Made by a program: the position numbers and the translations under genes | Assembly: GCA_022703255.1 (NCBI GenBank) | Contig: JAKLDZ010000009.1 | Span: forward strand, 1 to 36,101 | Direction: 5' to 3' | Length of the DNA: 36,101 bases | Source: Myxococcota bacterium | GTDB lineage: Bacteria; Myxococcota_A; Polyangia; Polyangiales; Polyangiaceae | Shown here: in pieces, positions 1,200-36,101 of the stretch | Position numbering within the stretch: position 1 is the first letter of the stretch | How the letters are laid out: every line of letters starts with the position of its first letter | Notes under the pieces: model-generated | The model's database searches: none | The model's input: the letters and a program-made list of their open reading frames with translations, nothing else | What the model was told of the DNA's origin: nothing

Positions 1200-1871
1200 A
1201 TGCAGATGGACACGGATCAGATCGGCGTGCGCGATGTCGGGCTCGATGACGAGCCCCCGCCCGAAGGGGAAGGGGCAGTCGAGGAGGACGCGGGGCCGCA
1301 GTGGCTCCGGGTGCTGCTCTGGAACAACCCCAAGGTGTGGCTCAGATGCCCCGCTGAGCAGCAGCCAGAGGGCGCGCTGTGGGTAGGCGCGGGGAGGAAG
1401 CCGCGAGACGGTGAGCCGACCGTCGAAGTCGTCGATGACATCTGTGGGAAGCCCAAGTGGGAGCGCATCCGCTCCCCGGCCGAGTACCGCGCACGCGGAC
1501 TTCCGCCGCCGCTGATCACCGTTTCCGATGTGGCCCTCATGCTCGGCGTCGGCCGTGCCACGGTCGAACGCCTTCCGGCGGCCGAGCTTCCCTACGTGCA
1601 TGTGGGTCGTGGGACGAACAACCTGCGACGCAGATACAGACGCGAGGACGTGCTCGCCTTCATCGAGGCCCAGTGCGCCCGGAGCGCTGAACGCGAAGAC
1701 CACAAGATGGAGATGAAAGAATGGGAACGAGCGGTCTCATGCGCAAAGCGGGCAGGGGGAACTGGTACATCCGCATCTACGACCCGCGCTCGCGCACGGA
1801 GTACCGAGAGTCAGCCCACACAGCCGACGAAGCCATCGCTCGTCAACGCTTGGCGGAAGCTGAGAGGCTAG
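1200..1871 (+). CDS. Excisionase-like MerR-type helix-turn-helix protein
   Basis: The preferred start is ATG 1200, preceded by an AGAAGAAGG/GGGAG purine stretch; ATG 1206 is an alternative. The protein is about 223 residues. Residues roughly 105-165 form an excisionase/HTH_17 helix-turn-helix: a TVSDVALMLGVGRATVERL segment, then a VHVGRG turn, a basic RRRYRRED stretch and LAFIEAQC. Such proteins direct integrase reactions or bind att DNA. The N-terminal half has tryptophans and no family I recognise. The frame runs 151 bases into the integrase gene; the last ~50 residues are Ser/Thr/Arg/Ala-rich and look like out-of-frame integrase sequence. The natural end may therefore be earlier, or the overlap may be real. 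Position directly before the integrase supports the excisionase role. Confidence 0.68.
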   Translation: MQMDTDQIGVRDVGLDDEPPPEGEGAVEEDAGPQWLRVLLWNNPKVWLRCPAEQQPEGALWVGAGRKPRDGEPTVEVVDDICGKPKWERIRSPAEYRARGLPPPLITVSDVALMLGVGRATVERLPAAELPYVHVGRGTNNLRRRYRREDVLAFIEAQCARSAEREDHKMEMKEWERAVSCAKRAGGTGTSASTTRARARSTESQPTQPTKPSLVNAWRKLRG

Positions 1872-2962
1872 TCACCCTGGGGGCCTACGTCCCCCCAGCA
1901 GAACGGCGACGATTGGCAGACCGCATCGAGGTCACGATGCACGTCGCAATCGCTGAATACCTCGCCAACATGACGACCAACCGGATGTCGAAAGCGTACT
2001 CGGACACGACCGCGTACTTGCTGTTCAACTTCTTGGAGTTCTTCGAGCTGGTCGAGCTTCGGGGTCAGCACACGGCACCAGACGATCTGCCGAAGTGCAG
2101 GCTTCGGATCGCGAAGTACAAGAAGACCCCCGAGTCCGACTTGCCAGAGCTGCTCGCTCCGAGGCCGACCGACCGGCCAGCACGGCTCGTGACCGAGGCC
2201 ATCGTCGAGGGCTACAAGCTCCACAGGCTGGACGTGGACGACGCGGACGAGACGACTGTGAACAACGAGCTGAAGATCCTGCGCATGTTCGGCAAGTGGC
2301 TGGTCAGGCGCGCCATGCTCGACGAAGACCCGTTCGCCGGGGTCCACAGTGTCCAAGACGAGTTCCCCTCTGCCGGGCGGACGCTTGATGTCGGCGAGTA
2401 CGGACGGCTCGCCCATGCTTCGGAGCTGGACCTACAGCGCTGGCTGCTGGTCACCGGGTTGCACGGGCTGAGACGCGGCGAGACCGATCACCTGCGCCCC
2501 GAGGACATCAACGTCGAAGGTGGGTTCCTCGACATTCGCAAGCATCTCGGTAAGGACGGGGCGACCATCTGGCACCCCAAGTACGGCAAGGCACGCAAGG
2601 TGCCCATCGTCGAGGCCGCCACACCGTTTCTCAAGCGCGTGCGGGATCTGCCCACGGACAAGTACGGCCGGGTCTTCGGAGTCCACGACCGGCGCAAGGC
2701 CAAGAACCGGGCGCTGCTCGCAGCGGAGATCACCGGCAACGTCCGGTTCCATGACCTGCGCCACACGGCCTACACGATGCTCAAGGAGGAGGCGATGCGG
2801 CTGCTGGACCCGAAGCTGGCCCTCGCGGACATCCGCCTCATCTTCGGGCATGCGGACGAGACCATGGATGCGGTCTATGACCACCGCACGGTCGAGCGGC
2901 TGCGGAAGTTCATCTCCATCTCGCCGCTCGCGAAGCCCGTGGCTGACCTTCTCGCGGCCTGA
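1721..2962 (+). CDS. Tyrosine recombinase / integrase
   Basis: This 413-residue integrase catalyses site-specific strand exchange. The catalytic set of the phage-integrase family is visible in order: an arginine in GLHGLRRGE (about residue 250), a lysine further on, HDLRHTAYT (His-x-x-Arg, about 344-347), a histidine in FGHADE, and the nucleophile tyrosine in AVYDHRT (about 385). The N-terminal part starts RKAGRGNWYIRIYD, an arm-type DNA-binding pattern, followed by a core-binding SAM-like region. ATG 1721 has GGAGATGAAAGA just upstream; ATG 1739 is an alternative. The gene ends about 120 bases from the 3' end of a convergent tRNA-Pro gene, the classic arrangement of an integrase beside its own attachment site. 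Confidence 0.93.
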   Translation: MGTSGLMRKAGRGNWYIRIYDPRSRTEYRESAHTADEAIARQRLAEAERLVTLGAYVPPAERRRLADRIEVTMHVAIAEYLANMTTNRMSKAYSDTTAYLLFNFLEFFELVELRGQHTAPDDLPKCRLRIAKYKKTPESDLPELLAPRPTDRPARLVTEAIVEGYKLHRLDVDDADETTVNNELKILRMFGKWLVRRAMLDEDPFAGVHSVQDEFPSAGRTLDVGEYGRLAHASELDLQRWLLVTGLHGLRRGETDHLRPEDINVEGGFLDIRKHLGKDGATIWHPKYGKARKVPIVEAATPFLKRVRDLPTDKYGRVFGVHDRRKAKNRALLAAEITGNVRFHDLRHTAYTMLKEEAMRLLDPKLALADIRLIFGHADETMDAVYDHRTVERLRKFISISPLAKPVADLLAA

Positions 2963-5475: not shown

Positions 5476-6774
5476 ATGCAGTTCAAGTTCCTTTCGTATG
5501 CAGCAGCGGCCGCTGCCGCGCTCGTGATCACGCCAGCGTATGCGCAGCCCGAGCAGCCTGCACCGCCGGCGCCCACGCCTCCGCCTTCGCAGCCCGCGGT
5601 GGGAGCGACCGTGACGGGCCAGGGCGTGACGCTGGGGACGTCGGGGACGACGACGCCGGGGTCGGACACGGCGACGAAGAAGGCCCCTGCGCAGGCAGAG
5701 GAAGCGAAGAAAGAGAAGAAGGTGCCGTGGCACGGCACGACGTTCCTGCTGTCGCAGTACGCGACGACGCAGACGATCGGGCTGGGCGGGGATCCGCAGA
5801 GCGCGAACCCGCTGTACGCGTGGTGGATGGTGTTCGCGCCTCGCTACTACTTCCTCGAGGACGACAAGCAGAGCCTGATGCTGCGTCTGCGTTTCGACGT
5901 AACGTTGGAGATGACCAACAGCGACTCGACGACGCGTCAGTCGGAGGCGGAGTTCGGCAACATCTGGGTGCTGCTTCCGTACTCGCGGACGCTGTACAAG
6001 AACGGTGCGTGGGCGACGCGGGTGTCCACCGGGCCGCGCGTGCTGATCCCGAGCGCGAAGGGCGCGTGGAACGCGGGCACGCGGCTGATGCCGGGTTGGA
6101 GCGCGGGCTTCAGCCAGGGCTTCCCGCTGGCCGGCAAGGGCAAGGACTGGTTCCCCTCGGCGGGCGTCAACGCGTCGATCGCCTACACGAAGTACATCAA
6201 CAACTCGACGACGCCGTACAACACCGACTTCTCCCGCACGCGTACGGACACCGCGGGCCGCTCTTTCGTCAGCAACTCGTACAGCGGCTCGATGCTGTCC
6301 AGCCACCAGATCCTGGCAAACGTCGGTGTGGATCTGCAGGTGACGGAGAAGCTGTCGGCGTTCGCGCTGAACTACTGGATCATGAGCTGGGCCTACAAGA
6401 CGTCCGACGCCGCCGTGAGCACTCCGACCGGGGCGAAGACCCCCGACTCTGGCGAAGATCCGCAGAACTTCCGCGTGCTGAACTGGCTGTACACGGGCAT
6501 GGAGTACGACGTCATCCCGCAGATGAGCGTGGGGCTCGGGTACTACAACCTGGCCAACCAGATCGGGCCGGCCGGCACGCGTCGCAACATCCTGTGGAGC
6601 CCTGACGCGGTGGTGTTCTTCGACATCACGGCGAACCTCGACGAGATCTACTCCTCGATCGCGGGCACCAAGGACAAGGACAAGAGCCAGAAGCGTCCTG
6701 GGCTCGCCGCCATGAGCGCCGCGCGCAAGGCCAACGCCGAGGCGGTCATGCAGAACCGCCCGATGGCCTACTGA
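5476..6774 (+). CDS. Outer-membrane beta-barrel protein
   Basis: ATG 5476 is preferred over the upstream in-frame ATG 5428 because GAGAGGCGAA lies just before it and a signal peptide follows directly (FLSYAAAAAAALVITPAYAQ, cleavage after AQ). The mature ~410 residues begin with a Pro/Ala/Thr linker and a charged KKEKK stretch. They then show alternating aromatic and polar strands typical of a barrel: WWMVFAPRYYF, LMLRLRFDVTLEM, FALNYWIMSWAY, MSVGLGYYNLANQ. The protein ends with an unusual alanine-rich tail past the last strand instead of a terminal aromatic. It may be a channel or porin-like protein; no substrate can be read. The gene stands alone on its strand, about 90 bases before the next gene pair. 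Confidence 0.8.
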   Translation: MQFKFLSYAAAAAAALVITPAYAQPEQPAPPAPTPPPSQPAVGATVTGQGVTLGTSGTTTPGSDTATKKAPAQAEEAKKEKKVPWHGTTFLLSQYATTQTIGLGGDPQSANPLYAWWMVFAPRYYFLEDDKQSLMLRLRFDVTLEMTNSDSTTRQSEAEFGNIWVLLPYSRTLYKNGAWATRVSTGPRVLIPSAKGAWNAGTRLMPGWSAGFSQGFPLAGKGKDWFPSAGVNASIAYTKYINNSTTPYNTDFSRTRTDTAGRSFVSNSYSGSMLSSHQILANVGVDLQVTEKLSAFALNYWIMSWAYKTSDAAVSTPTGAKTPDSGEDPQNFRVLNWLYTGMEYDVIPQMSVGLGYYNLANQIGPAGTRRNILWSPDAVVFFDITANLDEIYSSIAGTKDKDKSQKRPGLAAMSAARKANAEAVMQNRPMAY

Positions 6775-9399: not shown

Positions 9400-10158
9400 T
9401 CAGGGAGCTGGGAAGGCGGAGTGGATCTGGCCGATCAGGCCGATGAGCCAATCGAGCGTGGCGGGGTCGAACCCGCGCACGTTGAAGGGGACGGCGACCA
9501 GGCCTCCCTGACGCAGCTCGAGGATGCCCTTCCACCCGCCCTGCAGGAGCATCTGGCGGAGGTGCATCGGGAGTGCTGCGTCGCCTTCCTGTCGGGACGG
9601 GACGGTGACGTCGAAGCGTTGCTCGAAGGTCGGATCACCGAGGGCGCCGCCGGCCTGCTTGCTGTTGAACAGCGAGCTGAGGCCGAAGCCGATCTCGTCG
9701 ACGACGCCGGAGCCTCCGCCTTTGGATCGGACCGCTGCGCGTGCTGGGAATCTGGGGCTGGTGAGGAAGGCGAAGACATGGCGGTCCTCGCCGGTGGCGC
9801 GTTTGACGGGGTCGTCTTCGAGGCCCTCGAGGACCCACAGGGCGGCCTCGCCGAAGGTCGCGCGCAGCTCGCGGGCCGCAGTGGTGATGCGATAGGCGTA
9901 GATGCAGGGGTACCAGCCCTGGTACCAGCGCAGGTCGGGGGCGTTGCCGAGCTGGTAGCCGCGTGCGGCAGCCCAATCCTGCAGCGCGCGATCGGCGGCG
10001 TAGGGGTCGGGTCCTGCGGGCTGTGGGCCTGCGCCCCAGGCGGCTGGAGCCGCGGGGGCCGCGGCAGGAGCTTGGGCGGAAGGGACAGGTGGATAGGCCT
10101 GGGGAGGCGCGCCAGGAGGCGGTCCGCCAGCCGGGGGTGCGGGGGGTTGCTGTGCCAT
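9400..10158 (-). CDS. Proline-rich protein of unknown function
   Basis: The protein has a ~55-residue Pro/Ala/Gly-rich N-terminus and a globular part of about 190 residues beginning DRALQDWAAARGY. Visible features are WYQGWYPCIYAYR, a LRATFGEAALWVLEGLED segment and a final LDWLIGLIGQIHSAF helix. I recognise no family. Two starts are possible: ATG 10158 (MAQQPP), or GTG 10194, which overlaps the kinase stop as GTGA and would add a 12-residue leader. The overlap favours translational coupling, the leader looks unnatural, and neither has a good Shine-Dalgarno. It is the downstream partner of the Ser/Thr kinase gene, so it may be a substrate or accessory of that kinase, which is inference from position only. 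Confidence 0.68.
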   Translation of the reverse strand: MAQQPPAPPAGGPPPGAPPQAYPPVPSAQAPAAAPAAPAAWGAGPQPAGPDPYAADRALQDWAAARGYQLGNAPDLRWYQGWYPCIYAYRITTAARELRATFGEAALWVLEGLEDDPVKRATGEDRHVFAFLTSPRFPARAAVRSKGGGSGVVDEIGFGLSSLFNSKQAGGALGDPTFEQRFDVTVPSRQEGDAALPMHLRQMLLQGGWKGILELRQGGLVAVPFNVRGFDPATLDWLIGLIGQIHSAFPAP

Positions 10159-30801: not shown

Positions 30802-31167
30802 ATGGAGATCAACCTCGACAAGCGCGCCGTCCGACAGATCCGTCTATCTGCCGAAGACGCCATCGAGGAGGGAGACACCGAAACCCTCCGCGAGGACATC
30901 CTCGAAGCGTTCAGCGAGGAACAGGTCGAGGACATCGAGAGGCTGCTGGATAACGGCGACTTCTTCGAGTTCCTCACCGATGTCCTGGACGAGTGGAGCG
31001 GCGACGACGTGGACGAACTGCTCGAGATCCTCGAGACCCGCCTGGGCGAGCTGAATATCGACCTGAAGTACGAGCTCGCGACGGAGGAGGCGACCGAGGC
31101 CGAGGAGTTCGACGACGACGACACCGACCTCGACGACGAAGAAGAGGAAGACGACGACGACGACTGA
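30802..31167 (+). CDS. Very acidic small protein, unknown function
   Basis: ATG 30802 has a good GGAGG. The 121-residue protein is helix-forming in its first ~90 residues (RLSAEDAIEEGDTETLREDILEAF, then ERLLDNGDFFEFLTDVLDEW) and ends in a nearly pure Asp/Glu tail from about residue 103. It has few basic residues, no cysteine and no signal peptide, so it is cytosolic. Such acid tails occur on histone-like-protein partners, ribosome or chaperone co-factors and RNA polymerase-binding proteins. I do not recognise the family. It is a single-gene unit with its own promoter and a hairpin after its stop. Confidence 0.85.
   Translation: MEINLDKRAVRQIRLSAEDAIEEGDTETLREDILEAFSEEQVEDIERLLDNGDFFEFLTDVLDEWSGDDVDELLEILETRLGELNIDLKYELATEEATEAEEFDDDDTDLDDEEEEDDDDD

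Positions 31168-32352: not shown

Positions 32353-32356
<4 letters not shown>
31235..32356 (-). CDS. TPR-repeat lipoprotein
   Basis: GTG 32356 overlaps the threonine aldolase stop as GTGA and is followed by a lipoprotein signal ([16 protein letters not shown]), so the protein is 373 residues. The frame is open far upstream, but there it is antisense to aldolase coding. The body is a series of TPR-like helix pairs: [65 protein letters not shown], and more to the end, with [20 protein letters not shown]. It is probably a surface or outer-membrane-anchored scaffold, like BamD- or YbgF-type proteins but not specifically one of them. It is the last gene of the radical-SAM-led run. Confidence 0.85.
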
Positions 32357-33402
<1,046 letters not shown>

Positions 33403-33486: not shown

Positions 33487-34479
33487 TCACCCTCCGAGCA
33501 GATCCAGCGCGATCAGCACGAGCCACACCGCCAGAAGCACCAGGGCGCCGGCGATCTGCACGACCGTCGCGACCCTGCCCTGCAGCGGTCTGCGCGAGAG
33601 CGACTCCCCAACGATCAGGCATGCGCGGCCGCCATCGAGACCCGGAATCGGCAGCAGGTTGAACAGCCCCACGATGACCGAAAGAAGCGCCGCGAACGAC
33701 AACACCCTGCGCGCATCCCACCGGCCCGACTTCTCCACGCGCACCGCGAGCCCCACCGCGGATACCGGCCGTTGCCCGCTGCCCGGCATCACCATCCGTC
33801 CCGCGCGCGCGAGCAATCCCGCCGACGTGCGCAGCGGCTCCACGAGCCCGCTCCCGACCGCCGCCGCGGGACTTCGCCGCTGCAACTCGGGCCGAGGTAC
33901 GTACCGGGCGCCGAGCCCGGGCCGCGTCGGATCCTCGGGAGACACCTCGACCGCCACCGTGGCGCCGTCGCGCAGCAGCTCGAGCCGGACCGGTCGCGGC
34001 GATGCGGCGCGCAGCCGGGCGCGAAGCTCCTCGACGCTCGCAATGGCGGCGTCGTCAGCCGTGGTTACGACGTCGGCGACCCGCAGCCCCTGGGAGGCCG
34101 CGTGCGCCGAGACCGCGGTGACCTCGAGGCCGACCACGCGCCCCGTTTCGTTGCCCCAGCCGAGCGACAAGGCAACGCCCAGGGCGGCGGCGACGACGTA
34201 GTTTGCCGCCGCGCCGCCCAGCGTGACCGCGAGCTGCGCCGCGTGCGACGGTCGAGGCCCCGGCTCGTCGCCGAGCCCCGCGACACGCACGAAGCCACCG
34301 AGCGGGATCGGTGCGATCCACACCTGCGTGGCGCCGAGCCTTCGACGAAACAGTGGTGGGCCGAGCCCGAAGCTCACGAGGGTGACCTGCAGACGCAACA
34401 GCCGCGCGACCGCGGCGTGCCCCAGCTCGTGAAGAACCGCCATCAGCGCGAGGCCGGCGATGACGGCAACCGCAGCCAT
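33487..34479 (-). CDS. M50-family site-2 protease (RseP-like)
   Basis: ATG 34479 opens a 330-residue membrane protease. The zinc motif HELGH (17-21) lies in the first helix. FGLGPPLFRRR and PLGGFVRVAG are the usual strand and membrane-reentrant turn. A single PDZ-like domain follows (about 110-170, with SQGLRVADVVTTADDAAIAS). The third metal ligand is in NLLPIPGLDGGR. RseP has two PDZ domains and ~450 residues, so this is a short one-PDZ form. It cuts transmembrane or lipid-anchored segments inside the membrane. The gene begins 12 bases after the small lipoprotein stop, so the lipoprotein is a natural candidate substrate, which is inference. Confidence 0.92.
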   Translation of the reverse strand: MAAVAVIAGLALMAVLHELGHAAVARLLRLQVTLVSFGLGPPLFRRRLGATQVWIAPIPLGGFVRVAGLGDEPGPRPSHAAQLAVTLGGAAANYVVAAALGVALSLGWGNETGRVVGLEVTAVSAHAASQGLRVADVVTTADDAAIASVEELRARLRAASPRPVRLELLRDGATVAVEVSPEDPTRPGLGARYVPRPELQRRSPAAAVGSGLVEPLRTSAGLLARAGRMVMPGSGQRPVSAVGLAVRVEKSGRWDARRVLSFAALLSVIVGLFNLLPIPGLDGGRACLIVGESLSRRPLQGRVATVVQIAGALVLLAVWLVLIALDLLGG

Positions 34480-34491
34480 TCCGACGCGCCG

Positions 34492-34773
34492 CTACCTGCC
34501 GGCCTCGGGATCCGCAACCGCGTGATCGATCGGCGCGTCCTGCACAGCCTGATCGAGCGTGGACGCCTCGCTCGAGACCTGATCCACCGTGCCGTCGAGA
34601 TCGCCCTGATCCACTGCGGCATCCACGGTCTTGGGGTCCACCGCGGGCCCGCAGCCGCCCAAGGACGTCGCGGTCATCGACGCAGCCACCAGGATGCGTC
34701 CAACCATGGTTCCGCGCGCCTTCGGATAGGAGCGAGCCGGGTAGTCAAGCAAAGGGGTCAGTCTCGAAGCCAT
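34492..34773 (-). CDS. Small acidic lipoprotein, possible radical-SAM partner
   Basis: ATG 34773 is preferred since GGAGG lies six bases upstream, giving 93 residues; ATG 34707 (MVGRIL) would give a more ordinary signal start. The signal ends at TSLGGCG, a lipobox. The mature ~55 residues are almost all Asp, Val, Ala, Gln, Thr and Ser, with a loose repeat of a hydrophobic-Asp-Gln motif (AAVDQ, GTVDQ, STLDQ). A single histidine (PIDHAV) is the only aromatic-like residue, and no cysteine remains after the lipobox. It lies 25 bases after the radical SAM gene and 12 before the M50 protease. It could be the substrate of the SPASM enzyme, as known for radical-SAM/lipoprotein pairs, but no recognition signature is visible. 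Confidence 0.65.
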   Translation of the reverse strand: MASRLTPLLDYPARSYPKARGTMVGRILVAASMTATSLGGCGPAVDPKTVDAAVDQGDLDGTVDQVSSEASTLDQAVQDAPIDHAVADPEAGR

Positions 34774-34798
34774 GCGTCCTCCAGAACTGCTGATTCGC

Positions 34799-35923
34799 TC
34801 ATCGTACCGCACCGGGATAGTGCCGTCGAAGGAAAGCCTCGTTGCCTTCGGCGAAGAGCGCCTCCGCGACGTCGTCGGCCGCGCGGATCGCGAGCTGCTC
34901 GTGCAGGCACAGGGCGCTCGACGGCTCCGACGGCAGCCGCGTCATCGCGAAGTTCGCGCACGCACACCGGTTCCGACACCGGCTGCGGATCGAGCAGGTC
35001 AGGCACTCCGCCGGGAGCGTCCGCATGCCCGCGACCCACTCCGCGAGCTTGCGTGCGTCCACCCCCGCCGACACGTGACCGATCACGAACCGATCGGAGC
35101 GGTCGTCGCCGATCATCCGGTCGCAGGGGAACAGGTTGCCGGAGGGGGCGACGACCAGATCGCGACACCCGAGGTCGCAGTGTTCGCTGGCGAGGATGCC
35201 GCCCTTGACGTGGGCGGAGATCTTGGCGTCGAGGGCGGAGATCCACAGAGGATCCCCACACCGATACGACGCGAGGTGCCGGGCAGCCAGGGCGGCGTAG
35301 GCCTCCGTCAACGACTCCCGCACCGCAGGCGCGGACCAGTCGGCGGACCAGTTGGGGTTGACCACGAAGTCGCGCACGCCCAGGTCCCGGGCCTCGTCGA
35401 TCGACTCCCCGACCCATTGCAGGTTCGACGGGTCCAGCACGAGGATCGCGCGGACGCGAAGGCCGGCGGCCAGGGCGCAGCGGAGCCCGTCGACGACGCG
35501 TGCATGGGTCGAGGCTCCGCTCGCATCACGACGATTGGCGTCGTGCGCAGCGGCGATTCCGTCGTAGGAGACCGCGACCAGGAACCGCTCCTCCGCGAGC
35601 CACTCGCAGCGCTGCGGCGTGAGCAGCGTGCCGTTGGTGGTCACCGTGGGGGAGAGCTCGACCCCCTTCGGCGCGCACAGCCCGCGTCCGAGCGCTGTGA
35701 ACGACCTGAGCGTGTCCCAGCGGAGCAGGGGCTCGCCTCCGAAGAACACGAGGTGGAGTCGTTGGCCGACGCGATCCAGGGCGAGCTCGAAGGCGGCTCG
35801 CGCGGTGTCCTCCGACATGGCGGCGTCGCGCTTGGGACCCGCATAGCAGTAGCGGCAACGCAGGTTGCAGTCGTGCGTCAGGCACAGCGTGAGGTGGACG
35901 TCGGGGGCCTTGAGCGGCTGCAT
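34799..35923 (-). CDS. Radical SAM/SPASM maturase
   Basis: ATG 35923 is chosen; the open frame further upstream has no likely start except ATG 36022, which would add a proline-rich leader. The 374-residue protein has the radical SAM cluster motif C-x3-C-x2-C in HDCNLRCRYCY (Cys 19, 23, 26), the GGEPLL motif, and substrate-barrel strands (VSYDGIAAAHD, AILVLDPSN). The C-terminal SPASM region is clear: HCDLGCRDLVV, NLFPCDRM, then C-x2-C and the cluster CRNRCACA. Two auxiliary iron-sulfur clusters are therefore likely. SPASM enzymes modify ribosomal peptides or proteins (anSME, PqqE-type). The first gene of the run is followed by the lipoprotein and protease genes. The 178 bases to the right edge show nothing recognisable. 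Confidence 0.9.
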   Translation of the reverse strand: MQPLKAPDVHLTLCLTHDCNLRCRYCYAGPKRDAAMSEDTARAAFELALDRVGQRLHLVFFGGEPLLRWDTLRSFTALGRGLCAPKGVELSPTVTTNGTLLTPQRCEWLAEERFLVAVSYDGIAAAHDANRRDASGASTHARVVDGLRCALAAGLRVRAILVLDPSNLQWVGESIDEARDLGVRDFVVNPNWSADWSAPAVRESLTEAYAALAARHLASYRCGDPLWISALDAKISAHVKGGILASEHCDLGCRDLVVAPSGNLFPCDRMIGDDRSDRFVIGHVSAGVDARKLAEWVAGMRTLPAECLTCSIRSRCRNRCACANFAMTRLPSEPSSALCLHEQLAIRAADDVAEALFAEGNEAFLRRHYPGAVR

Positions 35924-36101
35924 CGCTGCGATCGGAGTATGCGTGGGGGCGGAGCGAGGGACAAGGAGAAGACGAGGCGATCGGGGTTGAAGCCGCGGAC
36001 ACGAGCCACAGGGGGTCCACATGCGGCTGCGCGCAAGCTCGAGAGCGTCGCGGCGAGGGTGGAACAGGGAGCGTGGGACGGATCCGAGCGCGGGCGGTGA
36101 G

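Follow-up and report, generated by a model that had tools for sequence, protein, structure and literature searches.

A candidate maturation cassette for a small modified lipoprotein in Myxococcota

Three consecutive genes in the window

The DNA analysed here, called the window, is an entire contig of 36,101 bases (G000:C889, from a genome in 932 contigs), and the DNA upstream of the enzyme gene considered below is missing from it. A preliminary description made from the letters of the window had placed three consecutive genes on one strand, separated by gaps of 25 and 12 bases and encoding a radical SAM/SPASM enzyme, an acidic lipoprotein of 93 residues and a one-PDZ M50 protease. Coordinates, strand, order and gaps were all reproduced (Table 1). 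The assignments of the products held as well: the enzyme has the CxxxCxxC motif and a complete set of SPASM cysteines, invariant in three genomes; the product of the middle gene is 93 residues long and has an LGGC lipobox; and the protease has HELGH, NLLPIPGLDG and a single PDZ domain. The reading frame of the radical SAM gene is open to the contig end and contains an upstream ATG at 36022, and we placed the start at 35923 because homology supports this position.

Table 1. Genes and motifs of the locus, with positions in the window
Feature	Position	Strand	Remarks
Radical SAM/SPASM enzyme gene	34799-35923	minus	374 aa; start ATG at 35923, in-frame ATG also at 36022
CxxxCxxC radical SAM cluster motif (C19, C23, C26)	35846-35869	minus	invariant in three genomes
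SPASM region C249-C339, seven cluster cysteines	34907-35179	minus	all seven invariant in three genomes
Small prolipoprotein-like protein gene	34492-34773	minus	93 aa; likely substrate
YP motif Y16-P17, ahead of signal segment	34723-34728	minus	invariant in seven members
Conserved block M33-D64 (signal-segment end, LGG-C41 lipobox, GPxxD, GDLDGxVD)	34582-34677	minus	
Lipobox Cys41, sole Cys of the window's protein; Asp46 at C-x4-D	34651-34653	minus	C41 and D46 invariant in seven members
One-PDZ M50 site-2 protease gene	33487-34479	minus	330 aa
HELGH zinc site of M50 protease	34417-34431	minus	H17, E18, G20 and H21 invariant in aligned copies
NLLPIPGLDGG motif of M50 protease	33628-33660	minus	NLLPIPGLDG invariant in aligned copies

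A search of other genomes for the three-gene order, the check proposed in the preliminary description, recovered it on contigs of G001 (JACRCQ010000022), G016 (MWCO01000003) and G067 (PNBO01000347). Together with the window's own genome (G000) these make four genomes from two families that share the order on one strand, and their enzymes are 52-62% identical. In the comparison of G000 with G001, residues 1-64 of the small protein gave a dN of 0.16, the enzyme one of 0.32 and the protease one of 0.38; by this measure the small gene is real and the most constrained part of the three. Because the order recurs and the small open reading frame is under stronger purifying selection than the enzyme, the grouping is, on this comparative evidence, more than chance.

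Directly after the M50 gene lies a gene for a GntG-type PLP aldolase (32353-33402, minus strand), which was not seen adjoining the cassette of G001, G016 or G067. Elsewhere in the window, positions 30802-31167 of the plus strand encode a 121-aa protein with a long Asp/Glu tail and no clear Pfam or NCBIfam match.

The enzyme has the build of peptide maturases

The enzyme matches the Pfam Radical_SAM family with 58 bits, and its nearest NCBIfam models are those of PapB and QhpD, with the SCIFF maturase fourth. PapB-type ranthipeptide maturases, QhpD and the SCIFF maturase share its radical SAM plus SPASM build, which here has the spacing C249-x12-G-x4-C267 and C307-x2-C310-x5-C316-x3-C320-x18-C339. 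While the PapB model (NF047865) scored best for every family enzyme tested, the window's enzyme reached 165 bits and those of four relatives 168-218 bits against a cut-off of 340, and no enzyme tested attained the cut-off of any of its best 25 NCBIfam models. The closest solved structure is 5wgg (E 8e-37), which we take to be the SCIFF maturase CteB. A Pfam search of the enzyme found no match to a leader-binding domain. PapB-type precursors consist of a leader and repeated CxxxD/E motifs, whereas the partner here resembles a lipoprotein, bears a signal and has one Cys and a C-x4-D motif.

The preliminary description had also seen a kinship with Bacteroidetes-type systems, which resemble this one in that they too pair a small lipoprotein with a radical SAM enzyme. 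This kinship did not survive comparison, the enzyme scoring 34.2 bits with TIGR04133 against a cut-off of 425. The small protein had no match to TIGR04134, the partner lipoprotein family of TIGR04133, in NCBIfam at E values up to 1, and the cassette described here differs further in adding an Lnt and an M50 protease.

Conservation of the small protein centres on its lipobox

No Pfam or NCBIfam family matched the window's small protein at its cut-off. Including this protein, the family has seven members, which aligned without difficulty. Invariant in all seven are M1, L5, P7, Y16, P17, M33, A35, T36, L38, G39 and G40 and, from the lipobox Cys onward, C41, P43, D46, D51, A53, D58, L59, V63 and D64. 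Conservation therefore sits in the YP motif, in the signal segment with its lipobox and in the approximately 23 residues after the Cys, with 15 of the 32 positions of block M33-D64 invariant and none past residue 64. The conserved C-terminal core that had been expected is thus the variable part of the protein. A recurring hydrophobic-Asp-Gln pattern noted in the same description is present (VDQ, VDQ, LDQ) but local to this genome; the homologues keep the Asp positions of the repeat and replace Gln by K, E, T or D.

The small protein has the hydrophobic signal and lipobox Cys by which bacterial lipoproteins are recognised, both assigned by eye, and LGGC is invariant in the seven members. In three of them (G000, G001 and G067) Cys41 is the only Cys.

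Several other identities for the small protein were considered and rejected. The score for an Lpp/OprI alanine zipper was 16 bits against 43. One relative gave a weak match to the NCBIfam model 'lipo-invert' (NF058595), which never rose over the cut-off and is regarded as noise, matches of similar strength occurring all over the genomes and in some controls. A candidate homologue in G313 (E 3.6e-7) proved to be the Asp-rich linker of an ordinary lipoprotein, and weaker matches were likewise discarded.

Enzyme and small protein occur together

The close enzyme clade (50% identity or more) was found in nine of the 318 genomes of the class: G000, G001, G016, G061, G062, G063, G067, G069 and G266. 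The small protein (E below 1e-15) is present in seven of these nine and in none of the other 309 (Fisher p approximately 6e-13, uncorrected for relatedness through shared ancestry), in a set of genomes that vary in completeness and include many metagenome bins. In the two enzyme genomes without it, G069 and G266, the enzyme gene is itself truncated by the end of its contig. G061 and G063 carry the enzyme gene and the small gene on separate contigs, with flanking sequence on both sides of each, and the pairing therefore needs more than common linkage to account for it; G062, in which the small gene is 287 bases from a contig end, was left out of the linkage comparison. Linkage in four genomes and unlinked co-occurrence in two support a functional pairing of the enzyme with the small protein.

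A diverged Lnt adjoins the enzyme or the small gene

A diverged gene for Lnt (apolipoprotein N-acyltransferase) is divergently adjacent to the enzyme gene or the small gene in all seven evaluable genomes and in no other. It adjoins the enzyme gene in G001, G016, G067, G069 and G266, and the small gene rather than the enzyme gene in G061 and G063. This arrangement could not be seen by the preliminary description because the window's contig ends, 178 bases upstream of the enzyme. G000 and G062 are outside the count of seven, their contigs ending at that point; the genome of G000 is 74% complete and holds no copy of the neighbour-Lnt clade elsewhere.

The G001 copy, on the opposite strand upstream of the enzyme, scored 194 bits with TIGR00546 (cut-off 132.9). 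Scores in six genomes ranged from 186 to 207 bits, and the G266 copy was assigned by homology. A profile of the seven, run over the class genomes, returned them at 743-838 bits and the next genome at 353, of which only the gap down to 353 is informative, the profile having been built from those same seven. In a tree the neighbour Lnts group together in a single clade (support 100/100) that excludes the ordinary Lnt of G000, G001, G016, G061, G062 and G063. Like ordinary Lnt they retain the E-K-C triad (7/7), but they are tied to the enzyme and share the fixed changes CYE to CFE, GE to SE and ND to DD. The Tyr adjoining the catalytic Cys is essential in E. coli Lnt, and its fixed replacement by Phe here therefore suggests a changed function. 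A further Lnt-like copy occurs elsewhere in G001, G016, G061, G063 and G266. In G067 and G069 (84% and 74% complete) the neighbour Lnt is the only one found, and there it could be the general Lnt.

The M50 protease is a dedicated but optional paralogue

The protease matches Peptidase_M50 (PF02163) with 127 bits and has both hallmarks of site-2 proteases, HExxH and NxxPxPxxDG, which together with a PDZ domain it shares with RseP and Eep; the closest solved structures are Aquifex S2P and RseP. It differs from them in having one PDZ domain, in scoring below the RseP equivalog model TIGR00054 (123.6 bits against a cut-off of 147.6) and in its placement, the four cassette copies forming one clade (support 100/100) on a long branch from 27 RseP-like copies. 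The phylogeny thus supports a dedicated paralogue. It is confined to four genomes and absent from three of the seven that hold enzyme and small protein (G061, G062 and G063), which have just an ordinary RseP-like protein; the M50 protease is therefore an optional part of the gene set. An M50 protease beside this enzyme family was found only in the four-genome cassette. At locus L132 (G061:C79) an ordinary-looking RseP start is seen at about position 9553, approximately 1.3 kb beyond the extra Lnt, in a frame that looks broken in the assembly.

The enzyme belongs to a wider family

By homology, the enzyme is a member of a PapB-like family of Myxococcota and PVC bacteria that is uncatalogued in NCBIfam. 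The family was found in 69 of the 318 class genomes (E below 1e-50, mostly at 30-43% identity) and also in the PVC groups Akkermansia, Kiritimatiellia, Pontiellaceae and Lentisphaerae. Many of its enzymes are adjoined by a protein that combines a YP motif with a hydrophobic segment and a lipobox Cys; the genes for such proteins in some cases overlap the enzyme gene and in others occur in tandem copies (Akkermansia, Pontiellaceae). Among small proteins tested across the wider family, none reached an NCBIfam cut-off.

Open reading frames of this YP-plus-lipobox type were counted at 75 loci with one fixed pattern, which was drawn up after the first loci had been seen and is not blind for those: 38 lay within 450 bases of the enzyme gene and in its orientation (64.5 kb), eight lay at a greater distance and one was on the opposite strand (204 kb). 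The control gave 17 in 602 kb, some of them true small genes of the window's clade. At 24 loci added later (L154-L158, L163-L184) an adjacent match was found in 12. Several wider-family loci without a match to the pattern hold variants.

A Tat-like RRxFL/M signal is present in 9 of 44 YP-plus-lipobox proteins of the wider family and would suit a substrate that is cross-linked in the cytosol and exported afterwards; small proteins with such a signal occur at L168, L170, L173-L177 and L088. Two candidate shared features were rejected. The tail motif [LIVAM]xG[DE][LIVMAP]..P was enriched (12 against 2.7 in shuffles) but is absent from the window's clade, and C-Xn-acid after the lipobox, seen in 31 of 44 wider-family proteins, was hardly commoner than in control lipoproteins (25 of 40).

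The window's own genome contains a second family member (L069, G000:C186; enzyme at 1472-2578, minus strand), with a YP-plus-lipobox protein 62 bases upstream (MTKLSQVPARPTSRRTAPSYPRALLGIGAMMLATACGG...) that has a Gly-rich tail. In Akkermansia glycaniphila (L089), upstream of position 6001, at least four tandem copies of 54-79 aa precede the enzyme, one stretch being N-masked. At L025 and L139 the proteins directly upstream of the enzyme are larger (293-316 aa); they have the YP motif and lipobox and share a domain with HG(D/E)GRGATGCVV..PPVFLSEEEAL.

Discussion

What the sequences show directly is which genes make up the set, how they are conserved and occur together, and that the Lnt and the M50 protease each form a clade of their own. 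On balance we lean towards reading the locus as a cassette dedicated to the maturation of a single small, modified lipoprotein. We infer the following course for it. The small protein would be made with a YP-bearing n-region, a signal segment that is hydrophobic and conserved, and an LGGC lipobox, and the radical SAM/SPASM enzyme would modify it in the cytosol before export, most likely in the conserved part from the Cys onward (GPxxD...GDLDGxVD). The general machinery would then export, lipidate and cleave the protein, and the diverged extra Lnt would finish its N-terminus. The M50 protease, where present, may clear or cut the signal segment of the substrate, as RseP does with ordinary signal peptides; it fits the cassette because site-2 proteases cut both signal peptides and lipoprotein signals (PMC10202637; PMC8144685).

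For the chemistry, a thioether from Cys to a non-alpha carbon would be the first guess because the nearest characterised enzymes (PapB, QhpD and the SCIFF maturase) make such links. The guess comes solely from the relatives of the enzyme, since C-Xn-acid is hardly commoner here than in control lipoproteins. A thioether at C41 would need the lipobox Cys, because this is the sole Cys in three of the seven proteins, and it would conflict with lipidation, for which the constant Lnt speaks. If lipidation is favoured, the chemistry would be different or would act elsewhere in the Asp-rich block.

Were the enzyme instead to join Cys41 to Asp46 by a thioether, the thiol needed by Lgt would be removed and the peptide would not be a lipoprotein; the M50 protease would then cut the membrane segment and free it. 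The invariance of C41-x4-D46 in seven members, the sole Cys41 of G000, G001 and G067, the ranking of PapB and QhpD as nearest models with the SCIFF maturase fourth, and the linkage of Cys-Xn-Asp by PapB for n of 0 to 6, completely for 1 to 5 (PMC9413430), are consistent with such a scheme. We nevertheless regard modification and release without lipidation as unlikely, since the constant, dedicated Lnt, whose target is a lipidated N-terminal Cys, speaks for lipidation, the M50 protease is missing in G061-G063, and C-Xn-acid is common in ordinary lipoproteins. The complete modify-and-release pathway envisaged in the preliminary description is not supported, since three genomes keep enzyme and substrate without the dedicated protease. 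Because the extra Lnt is the more constant partner, the reading shifts to lipoprotein finishing rather than release.

The small protein could also be an accessory or structural lipoprotein of the pathway, with the enzyme acting on something else. It is without the repeated core motif of classical precursors, and its gene is unlinked to that of the enzyme in G061 and G063. This seems improbable to us in view of the wider family, whose enzymes often adjoin a YP-plus-lipobox protein, in tandem in Akkermansia and Pontiellaceae, which is a usual sign of a substrate. Least probable is that the M50 protease cuts a short pheromone out of the lipoprotein signal at its conserved end (MTATSLGG), in the manner of Eep in Enterococcus, with further precedents in Listeria and Streptococcus (PMC10202637): a dedicated site-2 protease is present and M33, A35, T36, L38, G39 and G40 are invariant although signal segments usually drift, but the segment is kept in G061-G063 without the dedicated protease, conservation continues past the Cys, no conserved receptor or transporter gene was seen beside the cassette, and the enzyme and Lnt would go unexplained.

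Returning to the dedicated maturation cassette, a more specific and tentative possibility is that the enzyme alters the lipoprotein N-terminus such that ordinary finishing enzymes cope poorly, that the cassette supplies its own N-acyltransferase and sometimes a signal-peptide protease, and that the wider family makes YP-recognised, radical-SAM-modified lipoproteins. If true, this would be a private pathway for a chemically distinct lipoprotein, and the wider family in Myxococcota and PVC bacteria would represent a general class of such modified lipoproteins, with a YP motif in front of the export signal as the recognition feature.

We found no earlier description of this system in the open literature; one could exist elsewhere. 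The gene set suggests an undescribed way to make a chemically altered lipoprotein. Radical SAM peptide modification and lipoprotein maturation are usually treated as separate, and the cassette would join them. Such a cassette, with a diverged Lnt tied to one substrate, offers a compact and testable setting in which to study the making of modified lipoproteins. It could also aid the annotation of an enzyme family that is still missing from NCBIfam and that, in gut bacteria such as Akkermansia, lies beside similar small proteins.
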